This document shows, piece after piece, positions 2,122 to 24,225 of a stretch of 44,846 nt of DNA. Source of the DNA: Candidatus Hydrogenedentota bacterium (GTDB lineage Bacteria > Hydrogenedentota > Hydrogenedentia > Hydrogenedentales > SLHB01); assembly GCA_016215105.1 (NCBI GenBank), contig JACRLJ010000155.1, positions 1 to 44,846 on the forward strand, written 5' to 3'. The first letter of the stretch is position 1, and each line of letters starts with the position of its first letter. Below the pieces are notes generated by a model, which searched no databases, was not told where the DNA came from, and saw nothing but the letters and a program-made list of their open reading frames with translations. The translations under genes and the position numbers were made by a program.

Positions 2122-2496
2122 GTACTCCTCCATCGTACGCATGTCGTACGCCGAACAGAGTATCCCGCGTGTCCCGCGGCATGCAACCCAGAGTATCTGC
2201 GTAGTCCACGAGAGGCGTCGGGAACCCAAACGCGCTGGTTGGTGTTGAATCTCCATAAGACGCAGGCGGCGCGCATTTGATTGAAGGACTGTAAACTATG
2301 ACAGCGGTAGAACTAACGACCGACAGCGCCACCGTGGAGACCAAATCGCGCGTCCGCGTGTGGTGGCTGTCGCAGTTTGGCGGGTATTCGGTTCGCACAG
2401 CCCGGCTTCGGCCGCGTGTGAATTGGCTCGGCCGCATTGCTTACGACCAAGTGTGGCTGTTGTCACCCTCGGTCCCATTGCATCGCGGCGCCGGCG
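2122..2496. other. Intergenic region, nothing recognised
   Basis: These 375 bases separate the YhaM-like gene from the upstream glycosyltransferase gene on the same strand. The short frames here lack ribosome-binding sites and resemble no protein known to me. It must hold the YhaM-like promoter unless the two genes are co-transcribed; no convincing -35/-10 pair is visible. Confidence 0.5.
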
Positions 2497-3819: not shown

Positions 3820-3972
3820 TTCAGGGCGCCTTAATGACTCAAACCGAGATAGACAGGGCCGCGATTGGCGCAACGGACACGCAACGCGGACTTCAACGGC
3901 ACTATAGTACGCAGAAATGCGCGTCCAAACCAGATGTGCTATGCTGCCCGCCATACTCTTGGAGGACGCGGA

Positions 3973-5025: not shown

Positions 5026-5037
5026 GAATGGGAGATC

Positions 5038-5100
5038 GTAACGCCGGCATCTTGCCGGCATAGTTCGGTCGCCACGATGCCGGCAAGATGCCGGCGTTAC
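5038..5100. repeat. Perfect 24-bp inverted repeat between the two dehydrogenase genes
   Basis: Arms 5038-5061 and 5077-5100 are exact reverse complements around a 15-base loop, and each arm is itself nearly palindromic around ATCTTGCCGGCAT. There is no T-run. It could terminate or stabilise the upstream mRNA, but the perfect symmetry suggests a dispersed repetitive palindrome. Confidence 0.7.
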
Positions 5101-5144
5101 GTGCGATGGACTTTGTGGTGTCTTAGAAGAGAAGAGAGACTCGA

Positions 5145-7150: not shown

Positions 7151-10100
7151 ATGATTACTGTTCTGTGTAGTTACATGATAGTGGCGGCAAGCGCAGCCAC
7201 AGCAGATGGATGGTGGGATCCGGCGTGGAAATACCGGCAACGTGTAGATATCAACACGTCCGCCTTGACGGAAGACTTGGTCGATTTTCCGTTGTCGTTG
7301 CGGTTGACGGATGGACAGTTTGCGCGGACGCGGTGCGCCGAAGGTGGCCGCGATCTGCGGGCGGTATCGGCAGACGGGACGGTGTTGGCGTGCGAAATCG
7401 TGCGTTGGACGCCCGACGCCGTTGAGGTGAATATCCGCTTGCCCAAGGTGGGCGCGAAAGCGACGGGCGAGCACATAGATTTGTACTACGGCAATCCCGG
7501 CGCGCCCGCGGCGCCAGGAGGGGCTATCTGGAGCGCACATTACCGGGACGTGCTCCATCTCGCGGGCAATCTGAATAATGTTGTCACTGGTCAGCCCGGC
7601 GCCAATGTTGTCGAAGGCGTGCGAGTCGCGGACGGGGCTGTTTTCGATGCGCCAAAGGGATATCTCGACCTTGAGCCAAAGCTGCTGGAGGGTCTTGGCG
7701 AGCAAATCACGTTGGCGATTCGGTTCAAGGTTCGCGGAAGCGCCGGTGTGCAAACCTTAGCGTCGGGGCTGCGCGATGATCGCAGTGACTGGTTCAACTT
7801 TGGCCTCAAGCTTCCGAATATCGTTCACACCAACGCGGTAAGTCACGGCCAGACCGCTCCAGAGCTGAATCCGGCCGGAATTGCGCCGGACGAGTGGCAC
7901 GCCGCCGTCGTGCGCTACGATGCGCGTAATCATACGCGAACCATCTGCATTGACGGGACTGTCATAGAGAGCGACAACGCATTGCCGGGTCCGTTAGCGG
8001 TCAACGCGATCCATATTGGCCGGGGCGTCCTGCACTTCGATTCGTGGCAGTTTCAGGGCGTGATTGACGAGGTGCGATTGGCCGACGCCGCGCGCTCCGA
8101 CGGGTGGATGAAAGCGGAGGCGGCCTGCCTCAGTGACAAGAACGCGTTCGTGGCCATCGGCGCGCCTCAGGCCAATGGTGAACCGGCCCCGCCTCCGGCG
8201 CCGTTCGATTTGGTCGCGCCGGCTGATGGGGCGCAAGTGCGGAAGCGCGGCGGCGTCACCGCGCAGTGGCGGCCTTCGGCAGGCGCGGAAGGCTATGTCG
8301 TGCGGCTATCGGCGGACGCCGCGGGCGCGCAGGCGCTGAACGAGATTGACACAAAGACATCTACGCAAGTGGTCATACCGCCTGACGCCGCCGCCGGGAA
8401 ACAGCTGTACTGGACCGTAGTCGCGAAATCCTCTCGCGGCGAGATGCGCGCGTCAGAAACGCGTCACATGACCTTCTACGACTGGAGCACTCCCATGACA
8501 TCACTACCGAAAGACACAGTTACTCCGGCGATGTCTTCTGCGCGCGACACGGCCATCGAACTGCAAGGGTACCTGCGCAAACGCGTGGATAATGTGATTC
8601 AACGCTGGTTCCTGGAAGTACCCGAATCGAGTCCGGCCATTTTGCAGGTCTTTCGCGATCGCGATAGGACTCCGGTGCGCGATCCGCTGGTGCCGTGGGC
8701 GGGCGAGTTCGCGGGCAAGTTTCTGACGTCGGGCGAATTGAACTGGCGGTTGACGCACGACACACGCCTGAAGTCCGCGTTGGATGATTTCGCGCGCAAG
8801 CTCATCGCGTGCCAGGCCGATGATGGGTATCTTGGCCCGTTTCCGAAATCGTCGCGCCTGACCGGCGCCAACTGGGACGTGTGGGGGCACTATCATTGCA
8901 TGCTTGGGCTGATGCTGTATCACGAAGACACCGGCTATGCGCCTGCGCTCGAAGCGTGCAAGAAGGCGGCGGACCTCCTATTCGAGACTTTCGGCCCGGG
9001 CGGTCCGTCGCTCACGTGCGACGGCAGCCAAGGGCAGATGAACATGGCGGCGTGCCATAGCCTCGTGCTGCTCTACAAGAAGACCGGCGCGCAACGCTAC
9101 CTCGACTTGGCGCAGTACATCGTCAACGACGCGTGGAACGAGGCGGGCGCGGGGCAGTACCTGAAGTCGGCGCTGGCAGGGAACGAAGTCTACGAGTTTC
9201 CCGCGCACCGCTGGGAGGCGTTGCACGACTACGAAGTCCTGCCCGAACTGTATTGGCTGACCGGGAACGACGATTACCGCCGCGCCTTCGAACATATCTG
9301 GTGGAGCATCTTGCGCGGGGACCGGCATAACAATGGCGGCTTCTCGTCGGGCGAGGGCTGCACCGGATCGCCGTACAACCAAGGCGCGATCGAGACGTGC
9401 TGCACGGTCGCGTGGCAGGCGCTATCGGTAGATATGCTGCGGCTAACGGGTGACGCGCGTGTGGCCGATGAACTGGAATGGAGCGCGTTCAATAGCGGTC
9501 TCGGCTCACTTCCCTACAGCGGACGCGCCTGCGCGTACAACGTGCCCATGGACGGCGCGCGCACCTTCGGTGTCGAGTTGCCGTGGCAGGCGCCCAAAGC
9601 GGGGCCGGACCTCAACTGTTGCTCGGTCAATTCGCCTCGCACGCTGGGTATGGTGTCTGAGTGGGCGCTAGTGCGGAGCAATGACGGTCTGACGCTGAAT
9701 TTCTACGGACCGGGAAAGTTTTCCGCCGCGTTGCCCTCGGGCAATCGCGTGACTCTCACCGAGGAGACAACGTACCCGGCAGACGGGCGCGTGCGCATTC
9801 GCGTCGAGCCGGAGCGCGCCGAGTCGTTTACGCTTTCACTGCGTATCCCGCGCTGGTCAAAGAAGACCCAAGTCTCCGTCAACGGCCAGGCTTCCGAACC
9901 CATTCCGGGAACCTATCTCGCTCTCGCGCGCGGGTGGAAAGCCGGGGACCAAGTCGAGATTGCATTCGATTTCAGCCTGCACTATTGGGCCGGGCAACAG
10001 GAATGCGCGAACAAGATTTCCATTTATCGCGGGCCAATTCTTCTCACGTATGACGCGCGATACAACACGTTGGACCCCGATCAACTACCGGTCCTGGATT

Positions 10101-10516
10101 GGAAGACGGCTACGGTGGAGACAGCGTCGTTTGAGGGCGACCTCGAGCCGTGGCTGCTGACCACGCTGAAGTCGGGTGACCACACAGTGAGCTTGGTGGA
10201 CTTCTCCAGCGCGGGGCAGACTGGCAATCAGTATCGGTCATGGCTACCCGCGCGGGACCTCCCCCCTTCACCGTTCTACTTGAAGGAAGCGGCGGATGGC
10301 ATGTTGAAGTGGGATAAGCGCGCGGGCGCCGACTCCTGGACCGTGCTGATCGCGAAGACCCGCGATTTCAAGGACGCGACGAAACTAGAAGGACTGACCC
10401 AGCCCGAAGTGAAGCCGTCGCTGTCTCCCGGCGAGTACTATTGGACGGTGATCGCGGCTAACGCCAACGGAACGACCGACGCGGGAAATGGGCCGATGCC
10501 TCTCGTGGTGAAGTAA
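7151..10516 (+). CDS. Secreted multidomain protein with GH127 (beta-L-arabinofuranosidase-type) catalytic domain
   Basis: The product is 1121 residues. Order: a short hydrophobic leader without basic residues; DUF2341 (about 20-115, beginning 'WWDPAWKYRQRVDI'); a LamG/ConA-like lectin fold (about 130-320); an Fn3-like module (about 345-450, 'PFDLVAPADGAQV'); the GH127 (DUF1680) (alpha/alpha)6 domain with beta domains (about 460-1010); and a final Fn3-like module (1030-1121). In Bifidobacterium HypBA1 zinc is held by Glu338, Cys340, Cys417 and Cys418, with Cys417 the nucleophile and Glu322 the acid/base. Here ETC gives Glu748 and Cys750, 'LNCCSVN' gives Cys823-Cys824, and Glu735 is a candidate acid/base. 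An in-frame TGA just upstream and GGGGAG fix the start. It likely removes L-arabinofuranose or a similar sugar from plant or algal glycans. Confidence 0.82.
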   Translation: MITVLCSYMIVAASAATADGWWDPAWKYRQRVDINTSALTEDLVDFPLSLRLTDGQFARTRCAEGGRDLRAVSADGTVLACEIVRWTPDAVEVNIRLPKVGAKATGEHIDLYYGNPGAPAAPGGAIWSAHYRDVLHLAGNLNNVVTGQPGANVVEGVRVADGAVFDAPKGYLDLEPKLLEGLGEQITLAIRFKVRGSAGVQTLASGLRDDRSDWFNFGLKLPNIVHTNAVSHGQTAPELNPAGIAPDEWHAAVVRYDARNHTRTICIDGTVIESDNALPGPLAVNAIHIGRGVLHFDSWQFQGVIDEVRLADAARSDGWMKAEAACLSDKNAFVAIGAPQANGEPAPPPAPFDLVAPADGAQVRKRGGVTAQWRPSAGAEGYVVRLSADAAGAQALNEIDTKTSTQVVIPPDAAAGKQLYWTVVAKSSRGEMRASETRHMTFYDWSTPMTSLPKDTVTPAMSSARDTAIELQGYLRKRVDNVIQRWFLEVPESSPAILQVFRDRDRTPVRDPLVPWAGEFAGKFLTSGELNWRLTHDTRLKSALDDFARKLIACQADDGYLGPFPKSSRLTGANWDVWGHYHCMLGLMLYHEDTGYAPALEACKKAADLLFETFGPGGPSLTCDGSQGQMNMAACHSLVLLYKKTGAQRYLDLAQYIVNDAWNEAGAGQYLKSALAGNEVYEFPAHRWEALHDYEVLPELYWLTGNDDYRRAFEHIWWSILRGDRHNNGGFSSGEGCTGSPYNQGAIETCCTVAWQALSVDMLRLTGDARVADELEWSAFNSGLGSLPYSGRACAYNVPMDGARTFGVELPWQAPKAGPDLNCCSVNSPRTLGMVSEWALVRSNDGLTLNFYGPGKFSAALPSGNRVTLTEETTYPADGRVRIRVEPERAESFTLSLRIPRWSKKTQVSVNGQASEPIPGTYLALARGWKAGDQVEIAFDFSLHYWAGQQECANKISIYRGPILLTYDARYNTLDPDQLPVLDWKTATVETASFEGDLEPWLLTTLKSGDHTVSLVDFSSAGQTGNQYRSWLPARDLPPSPFYLKEAADGMLKWDKRAGADSWTVLIAKTRDFKDATKLEGLTQPEVKPSLSPGEYYWTVIAANANGTTDAGNGPMPLVVK

Positions 10517-10795: not shown

Positions 10796-13134
10796 CTACT
10801 CCTTCAACAACCACACCTCGGCAACCTGACAACCGCGGCCTTCGGTCTTGTCCCATCGCAGATCCAGCGCGCCGCCTTTGGTGGCTTCCTTCGGAATGGC
10901 GAACTCCTGCGGCGCCACGGGGTCTTTCTGGGCCAGCGGGCCATGAATCTGGATCTTATCGTTGGCGGTCAATTTCATCGTGGCCTTGAAACGGCCCGCA
11001 TAGGTTACGCGCAGCTTGTAGGTTGCGTCCGGATCGAGCTTGTCGTAGTGCATGCGCAAGGGCGCGCGGAACAACGTTTGCGCGGTATCGAGCCAGGACA
11101 AACGAACGGCGGTCTTGGGCTTCGTCGCGGCGGGATCGCCCAGGAGCGGGTCCTGCGGCACGTTGGGATTGCCGGAATACTCGTCCTGCGGCGAGTCCAC
11201 GAAGCCGGGGTCGTCCTTCCAGGGCTTGCCCGCTACCAGATGGGGCTCCTTACCCGCGTTCCCGAGGTCGTCGTAGAAACCGCCTGGGCCAGGATTCTCC
11301 CAATTCACTATTTCGGCAATGCGGGCGAGTTGTTTTGTCTTGTCCGCCTCGCTGAGAACCGCCTTGAACTGCATTTCGAGCCATGGGCCATCGTTCAAGG
11401 GCTGGTCGAGGAAATCGAGTACGGCCCCACGTTCGGCGCCGCTTGCAAGGAAGGGCCTCTTCACACTGAGTTGCGCGCCGATGCTCTTGAAGAGGGCGGC
11501 GCCGAGTTCCTCGATGCGCTTGCGGAGTTCCGGCGCTATGGGCTTGGCGTTCAGCGGAACGAGGGCTTTCCGGGCCGCGGCGATGGCCGGCTCGGGTCCC
11601 ACGTCTTTAGCTTTCTTCAATTCCGCGTAGGCCTTTTCTTCGCGTTCAGACTCGATGGCGAGTCGCTGCTTGTCATACTCATCGTAGTACGCGCGCATCA
11701 GGCCTTGCTGAAAGCGCCAGTTCTCCTTGGTCTTGCTGTCCGCCTTCTTCTCGATGTCCTGCCACTGTTTGAACGTAGCGTCCACGGTCGCGTTGTCCTT
11801 GAGGGGCCCTTCCCAATTCTTCTCTTGCGCGAGCAACCCATCGCCAAAGGCCCGTCCGATGTCTTCGCCGATGTAGTAGCGTCCGTAGTCGTGTACCACG
11901 TCCTCGACTTTTACCTCCGGGTCCCACCCGCACGCAGACCAGATGGTCTTGTTCACGTCATCGTGGACACCGTCCGAGTACGAGATGAAGCCTTCGCTGT
12001 ACGGGATTTCGGCGTTATGGATATGCGCCATGGCGCGCGGACGCGGATTCGCGCCCTCGCGGCCTTCCGTGTGCGCGAAGGCGCGGTCCCAATGGGGAAC
12101 GGGATACTGGCAACGTACACTGTGGGTCAGATCGGGATAGCTTCGCACGCGGTACTGCTTCGGCGTGCGTTCACGCAGTTCCTTTATGGTCTGTTTGACC
12201 CAAGGCCCAAAAATCATCCCCGTCAGCCATGCCGGTTTTTCCTTTTCGAGGTAACTGAACAGGAAATCATTCTGCGCGTCCTCGAAACCTTGGTTGGACA
12301 GCCAGAAGGAAAGGCATCAGGTCCTGGGGCGCGGTATCGCCCGGGTCGCCGCCCGGGAGGAACACCGCGTCAAGGTGCGGCAGCTTGGCGAACACGTCTG
12401 CGCTACGTTTCAGTTCTTTGTCCGCCAGCGCGGCGTCCGCGACGTTACCCTTCAGCGCGTGCCAAATCCACACGTCGATGCCATAGGACGCTATTACGTC
12501 ACTGAGTTTCGAGTTCATTTCTTCGGACGTCATGATCATGTGCGGACTGCCCTTGGGCTTATCGTCAAAATCCGGGATTAGCTCGATGGCGTTCACGCCG
12601 AACACGATCAGGTCGCGGAAGTACTGCTCATGCTGCGCGACCGTCCAGGCGTCCGTGGTGTTGTTGGTGTTGCGGTACCCGATCTGATGGCCACGGATAC
12701 GGTCCTTCGGCGCCGTCGCGATGCGGGTGTCGCTGGCGAGGGTGATTTTATTCGGGCGCAATTCAAGCAGCCGGAGCGCCCGGCCCACGGCAAACAACGC
12801 GCCGCGTTCGTCGTGTCCGGCCAGGTACACGGTTGGCGCTTTGCGCTTGGCCGAGTCCACCCAAATCGCGTAGCCTTCCGGTTTATCTGGAACCGCAAGG
12901 CCGGAAGGCGCTTCGCCCAGTTCCTTTGGAAGCACTCCGGCCACGAGCACGATGGCCGCGGTATCGTCCGCCGGTATAGACGCCGCTTTGGCTATACTGA
13001 CAGCTGTCCGCTTCTGGACCAACCACGAGCACGGCGCGCGATAGATCGAGAGTTTCGCCCACAGCGTTCCAACTGGCAGTGGCAAGCGCCATAATCGCGG
13101 CGCTTGCGGCGCAAAGTAACCTTGATGAAGTCAT
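10796..13134 (-). pseudogene. Broken GH20b/GH67-like secreted putative glycoside hydrolase (copy A)
   Basis: Read 5' to 3' on the minus strand, three frames are needed to follow the protein that the intact neighbours encode. Frame 1 starts at ATG 13134 (AAAGGAG upstream) with a signal peptide and 'LDLSRAVLVVG'. Near 13015 a net loss of 53 bases, relative to the copy at 15634-18072, shifts to frame 2 (about 13014-12310, 'KRTAVSIAKAAS' to 'DLMPFL'). Near 12305 a net loss of 47 bases shifts to frame 3 ('WLSNQGF' through 'AEVWLLKE', stop at 10796). Outside these two gaps the protein is very similar to copy B, including 'YSEGFISYSDGVHDD' and the C-terminal beta domain. Decay therefore appears recent. 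A sequencing or assembly fault is the alternative. Confidence 0.85.
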
Positions 13135-13641
13135 GACCCGACACTCCTTTGCTATACGGTTTGCTGTTTCCGAGGCCGGCACAAGAATGACGGCCATCTG
13201 GAGGGAACAGAGTCTGGAGCAATCCTAACGCAAAACGGCCAGCCGCTCAATATCCGAAGTAGTACGAATCTTGAGGACTGGCACCAGGCCGACGACTAAC
13301 TGTCAAGCAGCGGAGGTCTTGACAGACTTACCGGTTCATGGTACATTGACTTCACGCGAGGGGAGTGCCCGTACTTGCACAGGGAGAGAGAACTTGGTGC
13401 GGGCCAAATGGAGCAAATCGCGACGGTCACGCAGTATAGCTGTTTTCTGTTGACGGTAGCGCTTGCCCAGGAGGTGTGATGGCAATAGTGGGGAGTCTGT
13501 TCCGGTAAGTACTCTTGAGCGTTTCGACAAGTCTAGCGTACGATTCGTAACCGTTCGGAAAAGATCCGCGTGCGTCGTTGACCTCTGTTGTGTCAGCGCC
13601 TGTTGGATTGTGTTGTACTCATCTGGAAAGGGGATAGATCA
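13135..13641. other. Intergenic region between divergent genes
   Basis: These 507 bases separate pseudogene A (minus) from the secreted-protein gene (plus). Apart from the plus-strand promoter candidate listed separately, no gene or repeat is recognised. If that promoter is used, the plus-strand mRNA carries a leader of nearly 290 bases. Confidence 0.5.
13319..13347 (+). promoter_or_regulatory. Candidate sigma-70 promoter for the secreted-protein gene at 13642
   Basis: TTGACA at 13319-13324 is followed after 17 bases by TACATT at 13342-13347 (4 of 6 to TATAAT). The -35 is consensus and the spacing ideal. The downstream start codon is about 290 bases away. Confidence 0.4.
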
Positions 13642-15438
13642 ATGCGCAAGCAGAGTTACACTCTTAGATGCCTGATAACTGGAGCTATACTGGTAGCGGC
13701 GCTGGGGCTGTACGCGCCAAAGGCCGACGCCACCTGGTGGTGGTCGTATTCACAGCTGACAGACCAGCAGTACCCATGGTTTGGGGGAGTCACTGTGTCT
13801 GAATATCAATCGACTGCGCTCGGGAGCCCGCAATTGACCTATGTTGCAATGGGACAGCAGGATTTCATTTCCAGGATTCGGGTGAAGCTGGGATCGAGTG
13901 TCTATACCGCATACACGCTTCCTCAAGGTCATGGGGTAATGGACCACCCGTGCATCTCTGTATGGCAAAACTCCGGCAATGGTATTGACATATATGTGGC
14001 GTGGGCCGATATTGATCTAAGCAACGCAGTAACGTTACAGTACGTGGCCCATCGCGCGGTTGACCCTCCAAGTACGTGGCAGGGTCCATATACTGTAATG
14101 ACAATATCCCCCAGCAATTCCTATTCCCGTGAAGACAGAAGCGTTCTGCTCCAGTTCAAAGATCCCTCTCATTTTGCATGGTCACTTTTCCGCACCCATC
14201 CAGACCCATCAGACGAGTACACATGGCCTACGCACTGGCAGATCTACATGGAGGGCCTCGGCACTTTCGTGAACAAGGACCAGGACGTTTATACGGATGG
14301 AGATCCACCTAGCGCTGGGTACACGGCGCCAGTATTCAGCTATCACGTCGGCGAAGATGGAGCGCCAGACAGCATTGCAGCCCAAGTCTTCGACTCTTAC
14401 AATGAGTATGACGGCGCCGGTGTGGGCGGGAATCTGAACGTTTATAGCACCACGGCTGGCTTGGAGGGCGCGATCACAAGCAACTATACCAACAGCTCTC
14501 CAACCTATGGGGGCTTCGCACTCGTGACCACACAAATCGGTACACGGTACGTGCTATATGACTTGATTAGCAATGGTCACCTCTATTGTGTCAAGAGGAC
14601 TACAAGTGATGGGAATTGGGGGGCCGCCGTCCAGTTGGATAGCGCCACAGTTGCGTCCGGCACCCCCGTTTCGGTAGCGGTAACGCAAACCGCACCCCCA
14701 TCAGCCGAGGATGCCTTTGACGCGTTACTGGACGGTTCGAACGTCTTGCATTACAACAACAGCGGTAGTTCTCTCAAGGTTACGTCAGAATGCATCACGG
14801 ACGATGCTGGTCCTTTCACATGGGAAAGGCAAGGTATCGGCGCCTGGGGCGGAACTACTCCCGGAAATGCCGCTCTTCTTTACAATCCAGACGGCGTTTA
14901 CGTTGCGACTAAGTCATGCATTTTCGACGATTTCAATGATGGTGATTACGCAGGGTGGGGCGCTAACGGAGGGTGGAGCGCGGCCACAGGGGCGATGAAG
15001 AATACGACGCAGAGCGGGTGGAGCTGGTTCTACCGGAGCCAAACCCCCGCGAACGCAGACATGCAACTGTCCTATTGCTGGAACACCGCCGCAACGGGCG
15101 GCCGAATGTATGTGCGGCCCCGCTGCCTCAGCAACGCCAACAGCGACCGGGTAGAGTTAGTGGTCTATCCCAGCTGGATGTGGCTGCGCCAATTTGTCAA
15201 TGGCGTTATGACCGATTTTGGGACCTGGAACACCACCAGTACGCAGGACACTTGGTATGATTTGCGTGTTGTTTGCGACGGGGCCAGCGTTCAAGTGTGG
15301 AAAGGGCCCAAGGGCGGGACGATGACGCTAGTGAAGACCATTTCAAACTGCACGATGATCACGTCAGATTACGCGATGTTCATTTCGGTCGACAGCATAT
15401 GGAGCTTTGACGATATCTATATTGAACCCCTAGATTAG
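13642..15438 (+). CDS. Secreted protein with ConA-like C-terminal domain, function unknown
   Basis: The product is 598 residues. The start is ATG 13642, with GGAAAGGGG upstream; the open frame from 13588 would put extra residues before the signal peptide. A signal peptide (about 1-31, ending 'APKADA') is followed by the Trp/Tyr-rich 'TWWWSYSQ'. Residues about 35-420 have regular beta-strand spacing with Asp/Asn-rich turns, which may be a propeller but no repeat motif is certain. Residues about 425-598 begin 'DDFNDGDYAGWGANGGW' and end 'YAMFISVDSIWSFDDIYI', the layout of ConA-like lectin / 3-keto-disaccharide-hydrolase-type folds, usually carbohydrate-binding. It lies plus-strand between minus-strand GH-like genes, so it has its own promoter. 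A glycan-binding or surface role is likely, an enzymatic one unproven. Confidence 0.7.
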   Translation: MRKQSYTLRCLITGAILVAALGLYAPKADATWWWSYSQLTDQQYPWFGGVTVSEYQSTALGSPQLTYVAMGQQDFISRIRVKLGSSVYTAYTLPQGHGVMDHPCISVWQNSGNGIDIYVAWADIDLSNAVTLQYVAHRAVDPPSTWQGPYTVMTISPSNSYSREDRSVLLQFKDPSHFAWSLFRTHPDPSDEYTWPTHWQIYMEGLGTFVNKDQDVYTDGDPPSAGYTAPVFSYHVGEDGAPDSIAAQVFDSYNEYDGAGVGGNLNVYSTTAGLEGAITSNYTNSSPTYGGFALVTTQIGTRYVLYDLISNGHLYCVKRTTSDGNWGAAVQLDSATVASGTPVSVAVTQTAPPSAEDAFDALLDGSNVLHYNNSGSSLKVTSECITDDAGPFTWERQGIGAWGGTTPGNAALLYNPDGVYVATKSCIFDDFNDGDYAGWGANGGWSAATGAMKNTTQSGWSWFYRSQTPANADMQLSYCWNTAATGGRMYVRPRCLSNANSDRVELVVYPSWMWLRQFVNGVMTDFGTWNTTSTQDTWYDLRVVCDGASVQVWKGPKGGTMTLVKTISNCTMITSDYAMFISVDSIWSFDDIYIEPLD

Positions 15439-15461
15439 TAACGAAGGCCAATGTTGGGCCT

Positions 15462-15493
15462 CCCCGGAAGCTGGTTCGACCCTGTTTCCGGGG
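15462..15493 (+). terminator. Possible terminator hairpin after the secreted-protein gene
   Basis: CCCCGGAA at 15462-15469 pairs with TTCCGGGG at 15486-15493, 24 bases past the stop. There is no T-run after it, so intrinsic termination is uncertain. Confidence 0.35.
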
Positions 15494-15633
15494 GGGCATT
15501 GATACCTGTCGACTTCGCAGTCTGAAAGCTCTGTACGGAAATCACAGATCTTGCTGACGTAGAGGGTATGCGGTCATCCGCGTCGTAGCGGTCACTCCGA
15601 AGTCCATCAAAAAGGCCTGACGCTCACTTCTCG

Positions 15634-18072
15634 TTACTGCTTAATCAACCATACCTCTGCGACTTGGCAACCACGGCCTTGAGTCTTTTCCCAGCGCAGA
15701 TCGAGCGTACCGCCTTTGGTCGCCTCCTTCGGGATTGCGAACTCTTGAGGCCAAACCGGATCTTTCTGCGGCAGGGGCCCGTGAATTTGGACCGTGTTGT
15801 TGGCGGTGAGTTTCATTGTCGGGCGGAAACGGCCCGCGTATGTCACGCGCAGCTTGTATACCGCGTTGGGGTCGAGATTCTCGTAGCGCATGCGCAAGGG
15901 CGCCCGGAAGAGCGTCTGCGCGGTGTCCAGCCACGACAAGCGGACAGCCGACTTGGACTGCGCCGCGGCGGGCTCGCCCAGCAGCGGGTCCTGCGGCACG
16001 TTGGGATTGCCGGCGTACTCGTCCTGGGGCGAATCGACAAAGCCGGGGTCTTCGGCCCAGGGTTTGCCCGGCACGAGGTGTGGCTCCTTGGCGCCGTTCC
16101 CAAGATCGTCGTAGTAGCCGCCGGGACCGGGATTTTCCCATTTCACGATCTCGGCGATGCGCGCGAGTTGTTTGTTCCTGTCCGCTTCGCCCAATATCGC
16201 TTTGAGTTGCTGCTCGAGCCACGGCCCGTCGTTCAAAGGCTGGTCCAGGAAGTCGAGTATTGCGCCCCGCTCGGGGCCGCTGGCGAGGAAAGGCTTCTTC
16301 ACGCTGAGTTGCGCGCCGATGCTCTTGAACAGGGCCGCGCCAAGCTCCTCGATGCGCTTGCGAAGTTCCGGCGCTTCGGGTGTTGCGTTCGGCGGAACAA
16401 GCGCTTTCCGGGCGGCGGCGATGGCGGCCTCGGGTCCGATGTCGTTCGCTTTCTTCAGTTCCGCGTAGGCCTTCGCTTCGCGCTCGGATTCGATGGCGAG
16501 GCGTTGTTTGTCGTATTCGTCGTAATAGGCCCGCATGAGTCCCTGCTGGAAACGCCAGTTGCTCTTCAGCGCATCATCCGCCTTTTTCTCGATGTCCTGC
16601 CACTGTTTGAACGTGGCGTCAACGGACGCGTTGTCCTTCAACGGGCCTACCCAACTTTTTTCCTGGGCCAGCAGTCCCTCGCCAATCGCCGGGCCGATGT
16701 CTTCGCCGAAAAAGTAACGCCCGTACTCGCGCATGACCTCTTCGACTCTTGCATCCGGGTCCCAACCGCAGGCCGACCAGACGGTCTTGTTCACATCGTC
16801 GTGAACGCCATCGGAATAGGTCACGAATCCTTCACTGTAGGGCATCTGGGTGGCGTGAATTTGCTGCATTGCGCGCGGCCGCGGATTCGCCCCTTCCCTG
16901 CCGAGGGTATGCGCGAAAGCGCGATCCCAATGCGGGACCGGGTACTGGCAGCGGACACAGTGCGTAATGTCGGGACAGGTCCGCACCAGGTAGCGTTCCG
17001 GCGTCCTCTCGCGGAGTTCCTTGAGAGAAATCTCGGCCCATGGAGCGAAAATCAGGCCGGTCAACCACGCCGGCTTCTCCGTTTCGAGATACTTGAGGAG
17101 ATAATCGGTTTGTGTGTCGTTGAACCCCTGATTGGACACCCATAGTTTCGCCTCGGGATGGGCCTGATGCAGCACGCCATCCAATTTGACCAAGAACGGC
17201 AGCAGGTCCGGCGCGGGGGTCTCTCCCGGATCGCCCGCGGGAAGGTAGACGGCGTCCAGATGCGGAAGATTCTTGAAGACGCCGTTCGCCCGGTCAAGTT
17301 CTTTCTCGGCTAACGCCGGGTCGGCCATGTTGCCCCGCAACGCGAACCATATCCAGACGTCCAGTCCGTAGGACGCTATCAAGGCGCAGAGTTTCGCGTC
17401 CATATCGTTCGCGTCCATGACCATGTGCGGGCTTTGGCGTGGCTTTGCGTCGAAGTCGGGAGTCAGCTCGACGGCGTTCGCGCCGAACACAATCAGATCG
17501 CGGAAAGCTTGTTCATGCTGCGCGACGGTCCAGGCGTCCGTGGTGTTGTTGGTGTCGCGGTAACCGAGTTGATGGCCCCGGATGCTTTTCTTGGGCGCGG
17601 TGGCGATGCGAACGCCGCTCGAAAGTGAGATTGAGTTTGGACGCAGTTCGACCAGGCGAAGCAGGCGGCCGGCGGCGAACAGCACGCCGCGTTCGTCGTG
17701 ACCCGCCAAATACACCGCCGGCGCTTTCGGTTTGGCAGTGTCCACCCAGATCGCATACGCATCCGGTTCGTCCGGAATCGCAAGACCCGATGGCGCCGTG
17801 CCCAGCTCCTTTGGTGGCGCTCCAACGACAAGCACGATGGCGGCGGTATCGTCCTTCGGCGGCGACGCGGCCTTGGCCAGGCTGATTCCAGTCCGTTTCT
17901 GAATCTCTTCCTGCAGCATGACCGCCGCCTTTGCAACGACGGGCTTGTCCGGCGACGCAACCACGATTACGGCGCGCGACAAATCCATGTTTGCCTCGGC
18001 CGCAGCGGACGGAACTGACCAGGCTGCCACCAGCAGCACGGCCACAACAATCGAAACACCCTGTATTCGCAT
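15634..18072 (-). CDS. Secreted putative glycoside hydrolase, GH20b/GH67-like layout (copy B, intact)
   Basis: The product is 812 residues. ATG 18072 is chosen (GAGAGGA upstream; a GTG directly before it is the alternative). There is a signal peptide to about Ala25. Residues 30-160 form an alpha/beta domain with 'VYLAGHDERGVLFAAGRLLR', the hallmark of the non-catalytic N-terminal domain in GH20, GH67 and related families. Residues about 165-470 suit a TIM barrel ('IRGHQLGY', 'YLPAGDPGETP', 'YSEGFVTYSDGVHDDVNK', 'EYGRYFFGE'). Acidic residues of the YSEG/DGVHDD block are the best catalytic candidates. A helical region and a C-terminal beta domain (about 700-812) follow. I cannot place it in a numbered GH family. 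Two paralogues flank it, one broken, so the locus arose by tandem duplication. Confidence 0.75.
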   Translation of the reverse strand: MRIQGVSIVVAVLLVAAWSVPSAAAEANMDLSRAVIVVASPDKPVVAKAAVMLQEEIQKRTGISLAKAASPPKDDTAAIVLVVGAPPKELGTAPSGLAIPDEPDAYAIWVDTAKPKAPAVYLAGHDERGVLFAAGRLLRLVELRPNSISLSSGVRIATAPKKSIRGHQLGYRDTNNTTDAWTVAQHEQAFRDLIVFGANAVELTPDFDAKPRQSPHMVMDANDMDAKLCALIASYGLDVWIWFALRGNMADPALAEKELDRANGVFKNLPHLDAVYLPAGDPGETPAPDLLPFLVKLDGVLHQAHPEAKLWVSNQGFNDTQTDYLLKYLETEKPAWLTGLIFAPWAEISLKELRERTPERYLVRTCPDITHCVRCQYPVPHWDRAFAHTLGREGANPRPRAMQQIHATQMPYSEGFVTYSDGVHDDVNKTVWSACGWDPDARVEEVMREYGRYFFGEDIGPAIGEGLLAQEKSWVGPLKDNASVDATFKQWQDIEKKADDALKSNWRFQQGLMRAYYDEYDKQRLAIESEREAKAYAELKKANDIGPEAAIAAARKALVPPNATPEAPELRKRIEELGAALFKSIGAQLSVKKPFLASGPERGAILDFLDQPLNDGPWLEQQLKAILGEADRNKQLARIAEIVKWENPGPGGYYDDLGNGAKEPHLVPGKPWAEDPGFVDSPQDEYAGNPNVPQDPLLGEPAAAQSKSAVRLSWLDTAQTLFRAPLRMRYENLDPNAVYKLRVTYAGRFRPTMKLTANNTVQIHGPLPQKDPVWPQEFAIPKEATKGGTLDLRWEKTQGRGCQVAEVWLIKQ

Positions 18073-18199
18073 CACGTCATTCCTCTCACTATCCCACGTT
18101 TAGCCTCTCGCCGGAGCCTCTCGTTCCCAAGTTGTACTTGGGAACCCACACGCCCGCAACTGTTCCTACAAGTACGATCCCGCGCTTACCGCCGCGCAA

Positions 18200-18224
18200 G
18201 TACGCCTGCGCTCGATGAGCGCAG
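18200..18224. repeat. Dispersed palindrome, GTACGCCTGCGCTC family (copy 1)
   Basis: An 8-bp perfect stem (18206-18213 with 18217-18224) has loop GAT and is preceded by GTACGC. The same sequence recurs at 25351-25378 and, inverted, at 25494-25521, with a degenerate copy at 30601-30625. It sits in the 243-base gap between the two intact GH-like genes. Confidence 0.6.
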
Positions 18225-18315
18225 ACTGGCGGGGCGGGTGGACCGCGCAAACTGCCGGCAAAGCCGCAACAGGCGTGGTTCACGCCACTCGCGAGATACC
18301 GTCCGTGTTCTGCCC

Positions 18316-20700
18316 CTACTCCTTCAGCAACCATACCTCCGCGACCTGACAGCCACGGCCTTCAACAAGCCGCCACTCCAACTCCAAGGCCCCGCTGGAA
18401 GTGACCGCCTTTGGAACGACGAACTCCACGGGCGCAACCGGGTCGGGTTGCTTCAATGGTCCGTGTATCTCCGTCTTGCCGTTCGCCACGAGGCGCATCG
18501 TAGACTTGAAACGACCCACGTAGGTTACGCGAAGCGTGTATTGGGCGCTCGCATCCAGACCATCGTACTTCATGCGCAACGGCGTCCCAAACAAGGTCTG
18601 GGCCTGATCTTCCCACGACAGGCGGTAGTCCTTAATGTCGTTAAACTCTTCCATCGGCGCCGCAACACCGCCGGGATCATCGGCCCACGGCGCCTGGCGA
18701 ACGAGATGCGGCTGTTTCTGGCCGTTGCCCAGGTCGTCATAATAGCTGCCGGGGCCCGGACTCTCCCATTTCACGATAGCGCCTATCCGCTTCAGCGCTT
18801 CGGCCGGCGGGGCGTCCGCAATGGCCTGAAACTGCGCGTTTAGCCAGTTCTTGTTGTTCAGCGGCGTGTCCAGGAATTCGAGCACCGCGCCACGCTCCGG
18901 ATTAAGCGCCTTATAGTGCGCGACATCCAGTTGCATACCGATGCTATCGAAAATCGCGCGTCCGAGTTCCACCAACCGCGCCCTCATCACGGCAATCTGC
19001 GTATCGCCATCCGGCGCGCTCAACGCCGCGCGCGCGGAAGCCAGCGCCGCCGCTATACCGGGTTCGGACGCCTTGGAGAGCGCGTCCATGCACTTCTGTT
19101 CCCTCGCGGTGTCCTCGATTAGGCGGCGCCGCACGTATTCATCGTAGGTTGCGCGCAACAGGGCAAGTTGAAAGCGCCAATTCGAGGAAGACGACTTCGT
19201 GTCGGCAGCCTGTTCAAGTTTATGCCACTTCGCGTACGTTTCCGGAACCGTCTTGTTCGTGAGCAGCGGGCCAGTCCAATTCCGCTCGAAATCGGCGAGG
19301 CCGCTCGCCGCCGCGTCGCCCAAAGCATCGCCCATGAAATACCGGCCATACTCCTGCAGAATCTGTTTCGGAGGGGTCTTGCTGTCCCAGCTCAATCCGC
19401 TCCACAGAATCTTGTTGACGTCGTCATTCACGCCCTCTGAATATGGAATAGAACCGATGCTCATCGGCATGAGCAGATTGTGTATGCGCGTCATCGCTTC
19501 AGGGCGCGGGTTAAACGGTTCGCGGCCCAGCGTGTGCCCGAACGCCGGGTCCCATTCCGGAACGGGGTATTGGCTGCGGACGCAGTGCGTGATATCCGGG
19601 TAAAATCGAATCGGGTAGTTCTTAGGGGTGCGGTCCCGAAGTTCGCGCAGGCTCATCTTGGCCCACGGGCCGTAGACCATACCCGCGAGCCAGTCTGGCT
19701 GCTCGCGGTTCAGATAGTCGAAAAGCGCCGCGTTCTTTTCCGGCTCGAATCCCTGATTGGAAAGCCAGATCCCCGCCTTCGGATGCGATTCGCGGAGGGC
19801 TTTGGCCACGTTCGCGAGAAACGGCAGAAGCGCGGGCAACGGGGTGTCGCCTGGGTCGCCACCCGGCGCCATCACCGCATCGAGGCAAGGCAGCGCCTTG
19901 AAGAGCGCCGCGCGCTTCGACAGTTCCTGCGCGGCGATGCTTGGATCTTCAACTTTTTCCAAGGTGGGAAGAAACAGCCACACGTCCATGCCGTAGCTGC
20001 CGGCGACTCGGGACATATCAATGTTCATGTCCCACATGGTGCGCTTCATGTGGGGGCTGTCTTTCTTGGCGGGATCGGTTGGCGCGGTCAATTCAATCGC
20101 GTTGGTGCCGAAGACAACGAGATCGCTGCAGTACTGCTCGAACTGTTCAATACTCCAGGCGTCAAAAGTGTTGTTCAGGTTGTCGTAGCCGACATGGTGT
20201 CCGCGCAACGCGTATTCGGGGGCTGAGGCTACGCGAAAGCGCGAATCGAGCGTCACCGAGCCCGGCGTCATGCTCAGCGAGCGCAGCAGACGGCCAACGG
20301 CAAAGATCGCCCCGCGTTTATCGTGACCAACTAAACACACGGCCGGCGCAACGCGCGTCGTGGTATCGAGCCAGATCGCGTACCCTTCGGGCTTGTCCGG
20401 AACAGCAAGGTCCGCGGGCTGTTCTCCCAGGCCGGCTGGCGGCGCGCCAATCGTCACGAGCACAATTACCGTGTCTTTCGACGGAATAGCTGAGGTGACG
20501 GCGAGGGTAATCCCCGTCCGCTTTTTGATCTCCTCTTGCAGCAGGACCGCCGCCTTGGCGACTACCGGCTTGTCCGGATCTGCAATGATGATGACCGCTT
20601 TCGATAAATCCAGGCTGCTTCCCGCGGCCGCAGGATAAACCCATCCAGTCAATAACGCCACCAAGCATGCTAAACGCAAGGCGCGGCGTATCCACATCAT
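18316..20700 (-). CDS. Secreted putative glycoside hydrolase, GH20b/GH67-like layout (copy C, intact)
   Basis: The product is 794 residues, from ATG 20700 (GAAAGGAAA upstream; ATG 20697 equally possible). The open frame continues to 20856, but the signal peptide (about 1-26, ending 'YPAAA') fixes the start. Domain order matches copy B: N-terminal alpha/beta domain with 'VGHDKRGAIFAVGRLLR', barrel-like region with 'LRGHHVGY', 'MAPGGDPGDTPLP', 'IWLSNQGFEPEKN', 'IPYSEGVNDDVNK', helical linker, C-terminal beta domain ending 'CQVAEVWLLKE'. It is clearly more diverged than A is from B and lacks the 'YSDGVH' insertion between YSEG and DDVNK and a roughly 25-residue Pro-rich stretch before the C-terminal domain. 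This suggests a different substrate. It starts 28 bases after the broken TMTC-like gene. Confidence 0.75.
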   Translation of the reverse strand: MMWIRRALRLACLVALLTGWVYPAAAGSSLDLSKAVIIIADPDKPVVAKAAVLLQEEIKKRTGITLAVTSAIPSKDTVIVLVTIGAPPAGLGEQPADLAVPDKPEGYAIWLDTTTRVAPAVCLVGHDKRGAIFAVGRLLRSLSMTPGSVTLDSRFRVASAPEYALRGHHVGYDNLNNTFDAWSIEQFEQYCSDLVVFGTNAIELTAPTDPAKKDSPHMKRTMWDMNIDMSRVAGSYGMDVWLFLPTLEKVEDPSIAAQELSKRAALFKALPCLDAVMAPGGDPGDTPLPALLPFLANVAKALRESHPKAGIWLSNQGFEPEKNAALFDYLNREQPDWLAGMVYGPWAKMSLRELRDRTPKNYPIRFYPDITHCVRSQYPVPEWDPAFGHTLGREPFNPRPEAMTRIHNLLMPMSIGSIPYSEGVNDDVNKILWSGLSWDSKTPPKQILQEYGRYFMGDALGDAAASGLADFERNWTGPLLTNKTVPETYAKWHKLEQAADTKSSSSNWRFQLALLRATYDEYVRRRLIEDTAREQKCMDALSKASEPGIAAALASARAALSAPDGDTQIAVMRARLVELGRAIFDSIGMQLDVAHYKALNPERGAVLEFLDTPLNNKNWLNAQFQAIADAPPAEALKRIGAIVKWESPGPGSYYDDLGNGQKQPHLVRQAPWADDPGGVAAPMEEFNDIKDYRLSWEDQAQTLFGTPLRMKYDGLDASAQYTLRVTYVGRFKSTMRLVANGKTEIHGPLKQPDPVAPVEFVVPKAVTSSGALELEWRLVEGRGCQVAEVWLLKE

Positions 20701-20728
20701 GGGAATTTCCTTTCTCGGCTGCTGCGGC

Positions 20729-22143
20729 TCATTGTTTGCCGGTAGCGCGGTCAAGACCTTGTTGCGCAGGCCCAAGATCGGGGTTAAGCCGCAGCGCCTC
20801 GTTGAACTCCGCCGTTGCGTCCGTATGCCGGTTCTGGGCCAAGAGCGCGTACGCAAGACTGCAGTGCGCAGTGGCGGCGCCAGCGGTATCGTTCAGATGA
20901 GATTGTGTTTCGACGGCGCCTGTATACGCGTTTGCCGCGTCTTCATACCTCTGCAATTTCATATAGGCGTTTCCGAGCGCGATCCCCGCATCCGCGCGAA
21001 GCGTGTTTCCCTTGCGGAGCGTGCGCACGGCCTCTGTCTGGCTTCGCGCGGCGCCTTCGAAGTCTCCGTTCTGGTAAAGCTCGACACCCAGGTTAAAATG
21101 GGCCATCCCATTGGCGGGGTCGACCTGAATCGCGTGCGTCCACACGCTGCGAGTGTCAACCCACGTTCCAATCTGAATCCACGATAAGGGAATGAGAATA
21201 CCCGCCACGACAACCGAAACCACTGCGGCCGCTACCCGGCGCCGTGCGGAATCACCGGCGATCTCGGCGCAGGCCCAAACCGCCGCAACAAAAACCCCGA
21301 TGAGCGGCACGTAGGTGTAACGATCGGCCATGGATTGCGAGCCTACTTGGATGTAACGGTTACGACGCTTATCCCGAACGCCAACAGGAAGAAAGGGATC
21401 TTCTCGCGCACGAGCGCAATGATGCGCCGGCGCTGGTCTTCGCGGCTCAAACCAGTGAGATCGAGCCGCCCCAAAGGCCACCAGTCCAGCAGCAGCAGGG
21501 TTAGTGGAAGCGTTACCAGCATTGGTTTCGCGAGCAGACCTGCCAGGTAAAGGGTCAGTGAAGCAGCATACCAGCGAGCGCTGCCGATGCGGGTGTAACG
21601 CAGGTATGCGAGCGTAGTGAGCAGCCAAAACGCCGTGCTGAGCACATCTTTCCTTTGGGAGACATGGGCTACCGAGGCAATATGCAACGGATGCACGGCG
21701 AACAAGAGCGCGACGAGCGCCGAAGGCCACAGGGCGCCGGTCATACGCCGGAGGACCAAGTACAGCAACAATGTGTTGGCCGAATGTAAGACCAGACTGG
21801 TCAGGTGATGTCCCGCGGGATTGAGGCCGAACAGCGTGCAGTCCAGAATATGCGAGAGCATTGTTACTGGATGCCAATTCGAGGAGCAGACGCCGGTCAA
21901 TGCGTAATACAGGCCGTGCGCGGTCAGGCCGGACTGCACCACCGGATTTTGTGTGACGTATAGATCGTCGTCGTAGCCTATGAAGCCATTCAACAACACC
22001 CGCGAATACGCCGTGAACGAAAGCGCCACCAGCGCCAATCCGACGCCCGCAGCCATCCGTCCTTCGAGGGAAATCTCGAACAAACGCGTCGCTTTGGAAG
22101 GGTACCGTGCGCTTGATTGTCGCGGCCTCTGTGCTCTTTTCAC
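20729..22143 (-). pseudogene. Broken TMTC-like membrane protein with TPR repeats
   Basis: The N-terminal half (start GTG 22143, or ATG 22056 with AAGGA) encodes several membrane segments and motifs of the TMTC / DUF1736-like O-mannosyltransferase-type family: 'FIGYDDDLYVTQNP', 'WHPVTMLSHILDC', 'HLTSLVLHSANTLLLYL', 'LLFAVHPLHI'. It stops at a TAG near 21343 just after 'KIPFFLLAFGISVV'. In another frame, directly from that point, the sequence resumes with 'QVGSQSMADRYTYVPLIG', two more membrane segments and TPRs to the stop at 20729. Intact relatives have roughly 110-120 residues between these motifs, so an internal out-of-frame deletion of over 300 bases is inferred. These proteins glycosylate exported proteins at the membrane; this copy should be inactive. 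Confidence 0.8.
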
Positions 22144-22369
22144 GAAATAGATCCAGTAGATGCAGACAAAGAAAGCCCTCTTCCCGAAACATCATATAGC
22201 CGGGGGTATCCACTTGGCGACATAGGCGACCACGGGGCGGGACCTCGCGGCAGTTCGAGGTCGATTCGAGAACTCGGAAGAGCAACCCACCGCACGGATT
22301 TCTGCGTTAGGTCCCAAGCGTAATCTTAGTTGGGCGGGCCTTCACGAGCCTTGCGATGTCGCGCAGTCC

Positions 22370-22807
22370 CTACTTGGCGCCTTCCGGTTGTCCCGCCTCC
22401 GACGCCTTTGTGGCGGCGGCTTGAATGTACTTCGACAGGCTCACATCGGCGGCTTGCAGCGCAGCTTGCGCGGGGGTATCCCCATTTTCATCTTGGGCGC
22501 GCGGGTTGGCGCCTTTCTCCAAGAGATACTTGACGGCGGCACTCTGGCCATTCCCAGCGGCGAAGTGCAATGGAGTTCTCTTCCGGTCCCCGGTCACGTT
22601 CACCAGCGATGGGTCGGATTCGATTAAGGCCTTCAGGCCTTTCACGTCACCCGTCGCAGCCAGCTCCATAACCTGCTGGGCGGGCGGCAATCCGGAGACT
22701 TCTACCTTTGAGGGCACCGGCGATGTGGTACCCGAGCAGCCTGAGAGCAACCCCAGCAGGCAGCCAGCCGCGAGCGTAGACATCACGAACATAGACATCA
22801 ATTTCAT
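22370..22807 (-). CDS. Ankyrin-repeat lipoprotein 1
   Basis: The product is 145 residues. ATG 22807 has GGAGGT upstream; the open frame further up has no signal-peptide logic. The lipoprotein signal ends LLSGC (Cys24; Cys16 in LAAGC is an alternative). After a short linker come about three ankyrin-type units: 'MELAATGDVKGLKALI', 'TPLHFAAGNGQSAAVKYLL', 'NPRAQDENGDTPAQAA'. Ankyrin repeats bind other proteins; anchored to a membrane they would act as small scaffolds or inhibitors in the envelope. It follows the prepilin-like gene at 23116-24225 in the same direction, separated by a 308-base gap with strong hairpins. Two further pilin/ankyrin pairs upstream have the same order, so the pair is probably a functional unit. 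Confidence 0.8.
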   Translation of the reverse strand: MKLMSMFVMSTLAAGCLLGLLSGCSGTTSPVPSKVEVSGLPPAQQVMELAATGDVKGLKALIESDPSLVNVTGDRKRTPLHFAAGNGQSAAVKYLLEKGANPRAQDENGDTPAQAALQAADVSLSKYIQAAATKASEAGQPEGAK

Positions 22808-23115
22808 TTTGAGAGACCTCCATATCGGTGAGCGCGGTTCAAACCAGCGAAACAACGCTGGCAGTCTTGCGCTGCATTTTGCCAACTACTTCCCCGCGGT
22901 GGCCAAGTGACAACTCCGTAGTCAAAGGTATGAGTTCTTTGCCGACAACATCCACGCGAGTAGCATGGATGTTGCCCACAAAGAAGCTGCGTGCGGCGCC
23001 ACATATATGGCGCCAGGGCCTAGCTTTAGACCCTGGCGCCCTTGTCACCTGTGACTACACTTGCCGCCAAGCAGCGTCAAGCGTACAAATTGCGCTTCTT
23101 CCGTACTTCTTCAGG
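22808..23115 (-). other. Pilin 1 / ankyrin 1 intercistronic gap with competing hairpins
   Basis: A 9-bp stem lies at 22946-22954/22966-22974. Two GGCGCC-based stems overlap and cannot form together: 22995-23001/23008-23014 (7 bp) and 23009-23018/23031-23040 (10 bp). None has a clear T-tract. Mutually exclusive stems suggest attenuation or mRNA processing between the two genes. No ORF here looks real. Confidence 0.5.
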
Positions 23116-24225
23116 CTAGAAGAAATCCAAGTTGCCCCACGCTCCCGCAGGCTTCTTGAACGCGAACTGGCCCATTGGCCACTGATTTCCGCCAGCGTTC
23201 CCGAACTTGGCAAACTCGACATGGCCATCCATGTAGAGGATATTTGCCCCGCCGGGGACGTGATTGAAACGGCCGCCGCTGCCGACACCGCCGCCCGTGG
23301 TTCCGTCATACGCACGGCTCTCGTCGAGCATCATAACGATGCCCGATTGCGCCGAGGCTGAGCCGGACGGATTGTTGATATCGGTGATCATGAAGCGCTC
23401 GATGCCTTCTCTCGTCCGTTGGGCGGTAACTTGTTTGCCAGAGGGCAGAGTCACGGTGACCGCCGCATTGCGGTTGCTCCACGGTATCGTTGTGAGAACG
23501 GAGCCAGGGTTTGGTACCACTTGAAGATTAAGGTTGCCCTTCACCGCCAGACAACCTACATAATAGTAGTCTTCCAGCGTATTGTTCATCCACGTCGGAG
23601 AAATCGTCGTGGCGCCGTAATACCGGTACGCGCGCATGTCAGTGTACCCGAGCTTGACCAGATCCGTGTGCGGATACGGAGCGCACATTTGCGGAGTCAC
23701 ATCGCACCCGTTGTAGAAACGCGCCGGCGGGCTGTTCGGCGCGATGTTAAGCGGACCGCTGGTCGGCGCTGCGGTCTTGCCAAAACACGGGTTGTCCGTC
23801 TCGTTATTGAGCGTAGCAAAATCAACAACGCTGGCGTCGCAGCCGGCCATGATATTCCGGGCGCTGCTCCAGTCCGTCTGGGAATACAGGGAGGTACGGC
23901 CCGCCGAGGGGCATTGGCCAACCTGCATATCCGTCAAATACTCCGGATACACCTGCCACCACCCAACGTACACGGCCATGCCCTTGGTGGCGGAGAAGCC
24001 GGTGTTCGTATGGTCGATGCTCGACAACGGAAACTTATCCTTGTTCTCGTTGGCGAACATCTTGAGCACCAACCCCCACTGCTTGAGATTGTTTTGACAC
24101 GACGCTCGACGCGCCGCTTCGCGCGCGCGGGCCAAGGCCGGCAACAGAATAGCGGCCAAGATGCCGATGATGGCGATCACCACCAGCAGCTCGATAAGCG
24201 TAAAGCCTGACTTCCTGCGTTTCAT
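23116..24225 (-). CDS. Prepilin-like protein 1 (N-methylation motif, H-X9-DG-type C-terminus)
   Basis: The product is 369 residues. The type II/IV prepilin signal is '[21 protein letters not shown]': cleavage after Gly, methylated Phe, Glu at +5, then one hydrophobic helix continuing into '[16 protein letters not shown]'. The rest is a large globular domain with conserved Cys ('CPS', 'NPCFGK'), then '[11 protein letters not shown]' and '[20 protein letters not shown]', the processing-associated H-X9-DG block of the DUF1559-type proteins abundant in PVC and related bacteria. These are thought to join pseudopilin or secretion assemblies in the periplasm. The ATG at 24225 has AGGAG about 10 bases upstream. 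An ankyrin lipoprotein gene follows. It is most similar to pilin 2, including its leader sequence. Confidence 0.85.

Follow-up and report, generated by a model that had tools for sequence, protein, structure and literature searches.

What do the glycoside hydrolase (GH)-like genes clustered on this contig of a Candidatus Hydrogenedentota bacterium encode, and which linkage, if any, do their products cut? The window, by which we mean the whole 44,846-nucleotide stretch that was analyzed, comes from a 6.68-Mb genome and carries three mutually homologous minus-strand copies of one family, here called A, B, and C. These copies, their parts, and their neighbors lie in the window as follows.

7151-10516, plus strand: neighboring GH127-type protein with a laminin-G-like domain
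10796-13134, minus strand: copy A, broken family member with its signal-peptide start at 13134; ORFs at 12267-13085 and 10796-12217, minus strand
13588-15438, plus strand: unrelated 616-aa protein without significant family match, between A and B
15634-18072, minus strand: copy B, intact, probably secreted GH-like protein of 812 aa from ATG
17593-17997, minus strand: copy B N-terminal alpha/beta domain, GH20b/GH67N-like, residues 26-160
16753-17592, minus strand: copy B predicted (beta/alpha)8 barrel, about residues 161-440
17230-17232, minus strand: copy B invariant D281 in a GGDP-type motif, just past predicted strand beta4, candidate catalytic acid
16876-16977, minus strand: copy B conserved loop after beta7, residues 366-399, mostly low-confidence, with D368, H371, D383, R392, and E393
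16786-16818, minus strand: copy B YSDGVHDDVNK motif, residues 419-429, with invariant S420, G422, and D425
15637-15915, minus strand: copy B C-terminal beta part, residues 720-812
18316-20700, minus strand: copy C, intact family member of 794 aa
19855-19857, minus strand: copy C beta4 Asp
19411-19443, minus strand: copy C YSEGVNDDVNK motif
22370-22885, minus strand: ankyrin-repeat protein whose relatives adjoin B-type genes in other genomes
23116-24225, minus strand: DUF1559 pseudopilin-like protein whose relatives adjoin B-type genes in other genomes

Two intact copies and a broken one

A sequence-only reading of this DNA had described three paralogs with a shared architecture, and this stands for B and C. 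Both carry a GHD(E/K)RG...GRLLR block, a YS(D/E)G...DDVNK...W motif, and EYGRYF(F/M)G, both are predicted to have a helical stretch and a C-terminal beta part, and both are probably secreted, judging by eye from a signal-peptide-like start. Copy C does differ from B, as that reading had noticed, with YSEGVNDD in place of YSDGVHDD and 18 fewer residues before its C-terminal domain.

Copy A, in contrast, has two deletions relative to B (53 nt near 13020 and 47 nt near 12306), each of which breaks the frame, and as assembled it has no full-length product. Because A and B can be compared over 740 codon pairs outside the breaks with zero stops and a dN/dS of 0.11, either copy A is a gene that was constrained until recently or its breaks are assembly errors. 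A second broken gene lies near A, the TPR membrane-protein gene at 20729-22143 beside copy C, which is split across two frames and which, going by usual length, we take to be possibly internally deleted. Since this gene is frame-split as well, there is still room for the assembly-fault reading of copy A.

A family that catalytic-domain models do not recognize

The family is unnamed in Pfam and NCBIfam, and in the open-licence literature we found no publication on its chemistry. Across 37 members, no Pfam catalytic-domain model fits, and NCBIfam has none that matches B or C (the other members scanned gave only sub-threshold traces), which agrees with the earlier view that these proteins cannot be assigned confidently to a numbered GH family. 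Pfam matches at E <= 0.05 were to Glyco_hydro_20b (24/37), Glyco_hydro_67N (16/37), and DUF4838 (2/37, best E 0.017), while five other families matched once each and were taken for chance. The Glyco_hydro_20b and 67N matches are below the cut-off in B and C; GH20b is above it in paralogs L015 and L016. No match to PF00728, PF07555, PF07488, or PF15979 was seen in the 37 members at E 0.05, nor one to Glyco_hydro_18 among the family members scanned. The Pfam part of the profile search that the sequence-only reading had proposed as a check returned N-domain matches and no full-length match to a characterized GH. The matches from a profile search of the PDB were likewise confined to the N-domain, namely GH67 (6e-8), GH84 (3.5e-5), and GH20 (1.1e-3). 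An ordinary GH20 or GH67 identity was ruled out by profile and motif.

Profile-to-profile comparison reaches further. Over the full length, the family matches DUF4838 (11 sequences) with an E of 1.2e-9 and GH115 with 6.9e-11, and with the N-domain alone the values are 5.9e-15 and 1.7e-13; the core barrel alone gives a probability of 5.2% against DUF4838 and 4.6% against six GH115 sequences. By these alignments, most of both full-length signals comes from the N-domain. The picture changes with A6, a divergent subgroup of five sequences that profile comparison places in the same family (E 3.1e-90; barrel alone against the core, 8.6e-46). Compared with the barrel of DUF4838, that of A6 gives a match at E 7.4e-8 (probability 94.5%), so that A6 provides the link between the family and DUF4838/GH163. 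Of three A6-type paralogs scanned from the window's own genome, two also match PF16126 above the cut-off. No match was obtained with hhalign against four single GH84 sequences, one of them (L102) in the wrong frame.

Predicted fold and candidate active site

Structures were predicted with AlphaFold for full-length copy B, from a five-row alignment, and for a trimmed version, residues 26-520. The full-length model was of low quality (pLDDT 56.3), with GH84 as the top Foldseek and VIA match and GH84 and GH20 ranked first. Predicted secondary structure suggests the order alpha/beta domain, barrel, helical region, and C-terminal beta part; in the full-length model, much of the C-terminal half falls below pLDDT 60. 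The trimmed model (pLDDT 70.8, pTM 0.76) consists of the N-domain and a (beta/alpha)8 barrel, of which seven strands are modeled and the eighth is placed within residues 369-423 at pLDDT <50. Its Foldseek matches were GH67 (1mqq, 4.4e-13), GH115 (4zmh, 4.0e-12), GH20 (3.1e-10), and GH84 (1.8e-9), and VIA gave a Z of 17.6 for BtGH84 (rmsd 4.6, 400 aligned), 16.4 for GH115 (4.1, 430), and 16.3 for GH67 (4.2, 427). With a VIA spread of about 1.4 among GH84, GH115, and GH67, the fold group is clear from the models, the nearest family not. The barrel-like center inferred earlier from sequence is thus borne out in the predicted fold of 15634-18072, and a GH20/GH67/GH84/GH115-type fold and enzyme class is likely for the family.

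Conservation points to where a catalytic site might lie. D281, R364, D368, H371, D383, R392, E393, Y419, S420, G422, D425, N428, K429, and W432 are invariant in the 37 members, and D281, H371, R392, S420, G422, D425, and W432 remain so in 25 more diverse rows, which include one Acidobacteriota and two alphaproteobacterial plasmid sequences. In GH20, an Asp-Glu catalytic pair ends beta4, and in GH84 there is an adjacent Asp-Asp pair at beta4 (D242/D243 variants are named in GH84 PDB titles). The residue after D281 in the family is P in 26, D in 9, and G and S in 1 each of the 37, and never E, so that the GH20 pair occurs in 0/37 and the GH84 pair in 9/37; copies B and C do not have it. By analogy, the conserved, low-confidence loop after beta7 may be compared with the mobile loops of GH67 and GH115 on which catalytic residues lie, as described in passages of PMC3879575.

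It had been suggested that the absence of SDGVH in copy C means different substrates. The D/E difference at residue 421 is not peculiar to C, since 27 members have D and 10 have E, with at least five changes on the tree, and two of the five A6 members have S. A position at which core members have D or E and some A6 members S is unlikely to be essential, and because it varies within the family, flipping repeatedly across the tree, the B/C difference says little about whether substrates differ; the claim is unsupported by that motif. An association between residues 421 and 424 (Fisher p 8.6e-6, 37 rows) rests on three supported independent pairs and was dropped as evidence, since its significance disappears when relatedness is taken into account.

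Distribution and phylogeny

The family is large and widespread in the phylum. The window's own genome contains 19 matching stretches, which by our reading amount to about 14 genes, among them nine core copies including the broken A. Counting that genome, 49 of 60 relatives match at 1e-10, and at 1e-40 so do 54 of 68 genomes of the phylum (35/38 of the better assemblies). A scan of genome contigs with one protein, which used exact short patterns and so says little about absence elsewhere, found the same protein at 52% identity at one locus (L022) of another Candidatus Hydrogenedentota MAG. The listed family members are 734-941 aa long. One paralog (L016:5758-8526) has a leading PKD domain and a terminal type I dockerin, and is without the stretch after the WDP motif. 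DUF4838 (GH163-type) domains are likewise amplified, with 16 matches in the own genome and 25/25 genomes positive; three of these matches are consecutive on contig C155 (G000:C155:18962-25200).

In a 41-row tree, A and B are sisters (100/100) inside a clade of orthologs from other genera, and C falls outside the A/B clade. Together with the unrelated plus-strand ORF (13588-15438) that separates A from B, this does not fit the tandem triplication first suggested for the window. Three scans of viral contigs found no relatives of the family. A partial member lies on L110:1-2175, a human-fecal scaffold labeled "Bacteriophage sp." and marked unverified, which may be bacterial DNA.

Gene neighborhoods in Hydrogenedentota

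The window had also been taken for a glycan-degrading locus, a reading that its gene content does not support. Besides the GH127-type gene, most of the 20 further window ORFs scanned with Pfam belong to housekeeping, pseudopilin, ankyrin, TPR, and two-component genes. Neither an Rfam family at the gathering threshold nor a tRNA was found in the window. A DUF1559 pseudopilin-like gene lies upstream of a B-type member on the same strand in all five orthologous loci (L075, L076, L077, L078, and L080), with an ankyrin-repeat gene between the two in four of them, and the window keeps the DUF1559/ankyrin order (18316-24225), with the TPR gene inserted ahead of copy C. Because there are 23-60 DUF1559 copies per genome (five genomes), this linkage is partly expected by chance.

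At other loci, the neighbors vary. GH2 genes lie near two family copies on one contig, sulfatases occur in three family loci (L018, L069, and L124), GH29 fucosidases occur in two (L018 and L068), and a mandelate-racemase/enolase-type enzyme adjoins paralog L013. At L124, a sulfatase with an N-sulphoglucosamine-sulphohydrolase-type C-terminus (4309-5688) directly adjoins the family member at 1738-4251. BLASTP with the plasmid enzymes described below found no GH92, GH125, GH35, or GH84 relatives in 32 + 10 loci (one of the 10 overlaps an earlier one, and the ORFs were picked mechanically, with some genes possibly missed); the same search found GH29 in two loci and GH2 in one. In all, the Hydrogenedentota neighbors are inconsistent between loci and do not point to one substrate, and they do not confirm a GlcNAc-type substrate.

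Plasmid homologs and N-glycan loci

A more specific context comes from outside the phylum. Full-length or near full-length homologs occur in 3 of 72,556 plasmid records, from Asticcacaulis sp. DW145, Granulicella, and Sphingomonas, and all three are annotated as hypothetical protein. The Asticcacaulis locus encodes CutC, a TonB receptor, GH2 (with mannosidase-type Ig domains), GH3, GH35, GH125, GH92, the homolog, GH29, GntR, and GH84 (GH3, GH92, and GH125 are named from the record annotation only), and the GH92 stop and homolog start overlap as TGATG. In gene content it resembles the Xanthomonas nix cluster, for which passages of PMC6718126 list a TonB receptor, fucosidase, nixF, beta-hexosaminidase (nixG), beta-mannosidase, nixI, nixJ, alpha-mannosidase, beta-galactosidase, and cutC, and which parts of PMC6718126 and PMC5700972 connect with plant N-glycans. 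In the same portion of PMC5700972, nixF encodes a 351-aa GH18 protein said to cleave between GlcNAc residues. The position of the homolog beside fucosidase and mannosidases suggested that it might be NixF itself; this was refuted, NixF being a GH18 protein of 351 aa.

A search that covered the Asticcacaulis plasmid found no GH18 or GH20 gene on it, so the homolog and GH84 would remain as candidates for the steps that these two families carry out. Read most simply, this assigns a GlcNAc-cutting step to the family. On the Granulicella plasmid, the homolog lies between GH29 and GH20, with the sole GH18 gene about 190 kb away; the Sphingomonas homolog adjoins CRISPR and DISARM genes and has no glycan context. 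Because the plasmid sequences group with the L014 clade (88/83), apart from B and C, extending the plasmid-locus substrate to these two copies is a further step of inference.

Proposed function and alternative explanations

We propose that B and C are secreted multidomain glycosidases whose most likely target would be an N-acetylglucosamine linkage in a complex glycan, whether of glycoprotein type or another. The explanation as a whole is tentative, and we give it somewhat less than an even chance, though the degree of confidence differs among its parts. That the family is catalytic is very probable; the residue roles suggested for the active site seem about as apt to be wrong as right; and a GlcNAc-type substrate falls a little short of that, at a level raised slightly because of the barrel-level link to DUF4838. 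The layout would be that of the GH67/GH115/GH84/GH163 group, with an N-terminal alpha/beta domain, a pocketed (beta/alpha)8 barrel, a helical region, and a C-terminal beta part. D281, at the end of beta4, would serve as the acid, and D425 (past the last strand), H371, and R392/E393 would be other catalytic or binding residues, with H371 and R392/E393 placed on the conserved, probably mobile loop after beta7. As related in part of a review (PMC10154615), a GH163 enzyme cleaves GlcNAc-beta1,2-Man. One could go on and see here a new GH family, a distant cousin of GH163 that replaces GH18/GH20 in N-glycan loci, cleaves GlcNAc linkages with a site made of a single beta4 Asp, a His on the post-beta7 loop, and an Asp past the last strand in place of an adjacent carboxylate pair, and has been amplified in Hydrogenedentota into one of the main secreted enzyme sets, which we consider unlikely.

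The same fold could also serve alpha-uronidases or related exo-glycosidases of acidic polysaccharides, with a GH67/GH115-like inverting acid/base and a mobile loop. With the trimmed model, GH67 and GH115 give the lowest Foldseek E-values and the longest VIA alignments, GH67 is the top sequence match of the N-domain, and GH115 has the domain order that is predicted here and, in passages of PMC3879575, key catalytic residues on a mobile loop. GH67 appears in 0 of 60 relatives (PF07488) and GH115 in 2 of 68 genomes of the phylum (PF15979), so another family could fill this role, and Hydrogenedentes are named in part of PMC12555021 among phyla with enzymes for uronic-acid polysaccharides. However, the core barrel compares weakly with six GH115 sequences (4.6%), nothing uronate-specific stood out among the Pfam-scanned neighbors (20 window ORFs and 20 from other loci), though the mandelate-racemase/enolase-type enzyme adjoins L013, and active-site residues are unconserved between GH67 and GH115, according to passages of PMC3879575, so that the fold says little about substrate. 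We regard a uronidase as quite unlikely.

It is doubtful, too, that the family consists of exo- or endo-glycosidases for other neutral or sulfated biofilm or algal polysaccharides, with the substrate varying by copy. The nine core copies and at least five D/E changes at 421 do look like diversification, sulfatases in three loci, GH29 in two, and GH2 near two copies would suit such targets, and one survey gives, in the part concerned, an average of 115 GH genes per Hydrogenedentota genome (PMC9765126); against this, the 421/424 association is not significant (three supported independent pairs), and the neighbors differ from locus to locus. Finally, the barrels might not be enzymes at all and might instead act, for example, as carbohydrate sensors or surface binders. 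The canonical GH20/GH84 catalytic pair is mostly missing, and the genes linked to B-type members in five orthologous loci, DUF1559 and ankyrin-repeat genes, do not encode enzymes. The carboxylates, His, and Arg are nevertheless invariant across phyla, and the Asticcacaulis gene overlaps a GH92 gene inside an enzyme locus, which make a non-catalytic role improbable.

Glycosidases directed at a GlcNAc linkage remain our preferred reading, and the Asticcacaulis locus offers a concrete substrate candidate. That a family carried by 54 of the 68 genomes from a candidate phylum is still hypothetical on three plasmids marks a tractable gap in carbohydrate annotation. Its sequence and predicted fold tie together GH20, GH67, GH84, GH115, and GH163, which are usually treated apart.

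Comparison with known systems

With GH20 beta-hexosaminidases the family has in common a GH20b-like N-domain (24/37) and a GGD sequence at beta4, but Glu follows the beta4 Asp in 0/37 and PF00728 does not match. GH84 O-GlcNAcase/NagJ (2cho, 2cbj) gives the top VIA Z, 17.6, and has a similar N-domain, but the Asp-Asp pair is seen in 9/37 only and PF07555 gives no match in the 37 members; among genomes of the phylum, PF07555 is matched in 6/68. GH67 alpha-glucuronidase (1mqq, 1k9d) has a homologous N-domain and a similar predicted fold over 427 residues; it ends in a helical domain, and PF07488 (Glyco_hydro_67M) matches none of the 37 members.

GH115 alpha-glucuronidase (4c91, 4zmh) has a domain order like the one predicted here, in which the helical and C-terminal beta parts lie in a largely low-confidence half of the full-length model; in GH115 the order is alpha/beta, barrel, helical bundle, and C-terminal beta-sandwich, as set out in a section of PMC3879575. 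Its barrel-level profile match is weak, and PF15979 does not match. Xanthomonas NixF, as a 351-aa GH18, differs from family members of 734-941 aa without a Glyco_hydro_18 match. With DUF4838/GH163, PF16126 is found in only 2/37 core members at E 0.05 and the core barrel reaches 5.2%, whereas the full-length and N-domain profiles, the A6 barrel, and two of three scanned A6-type paralogs match.
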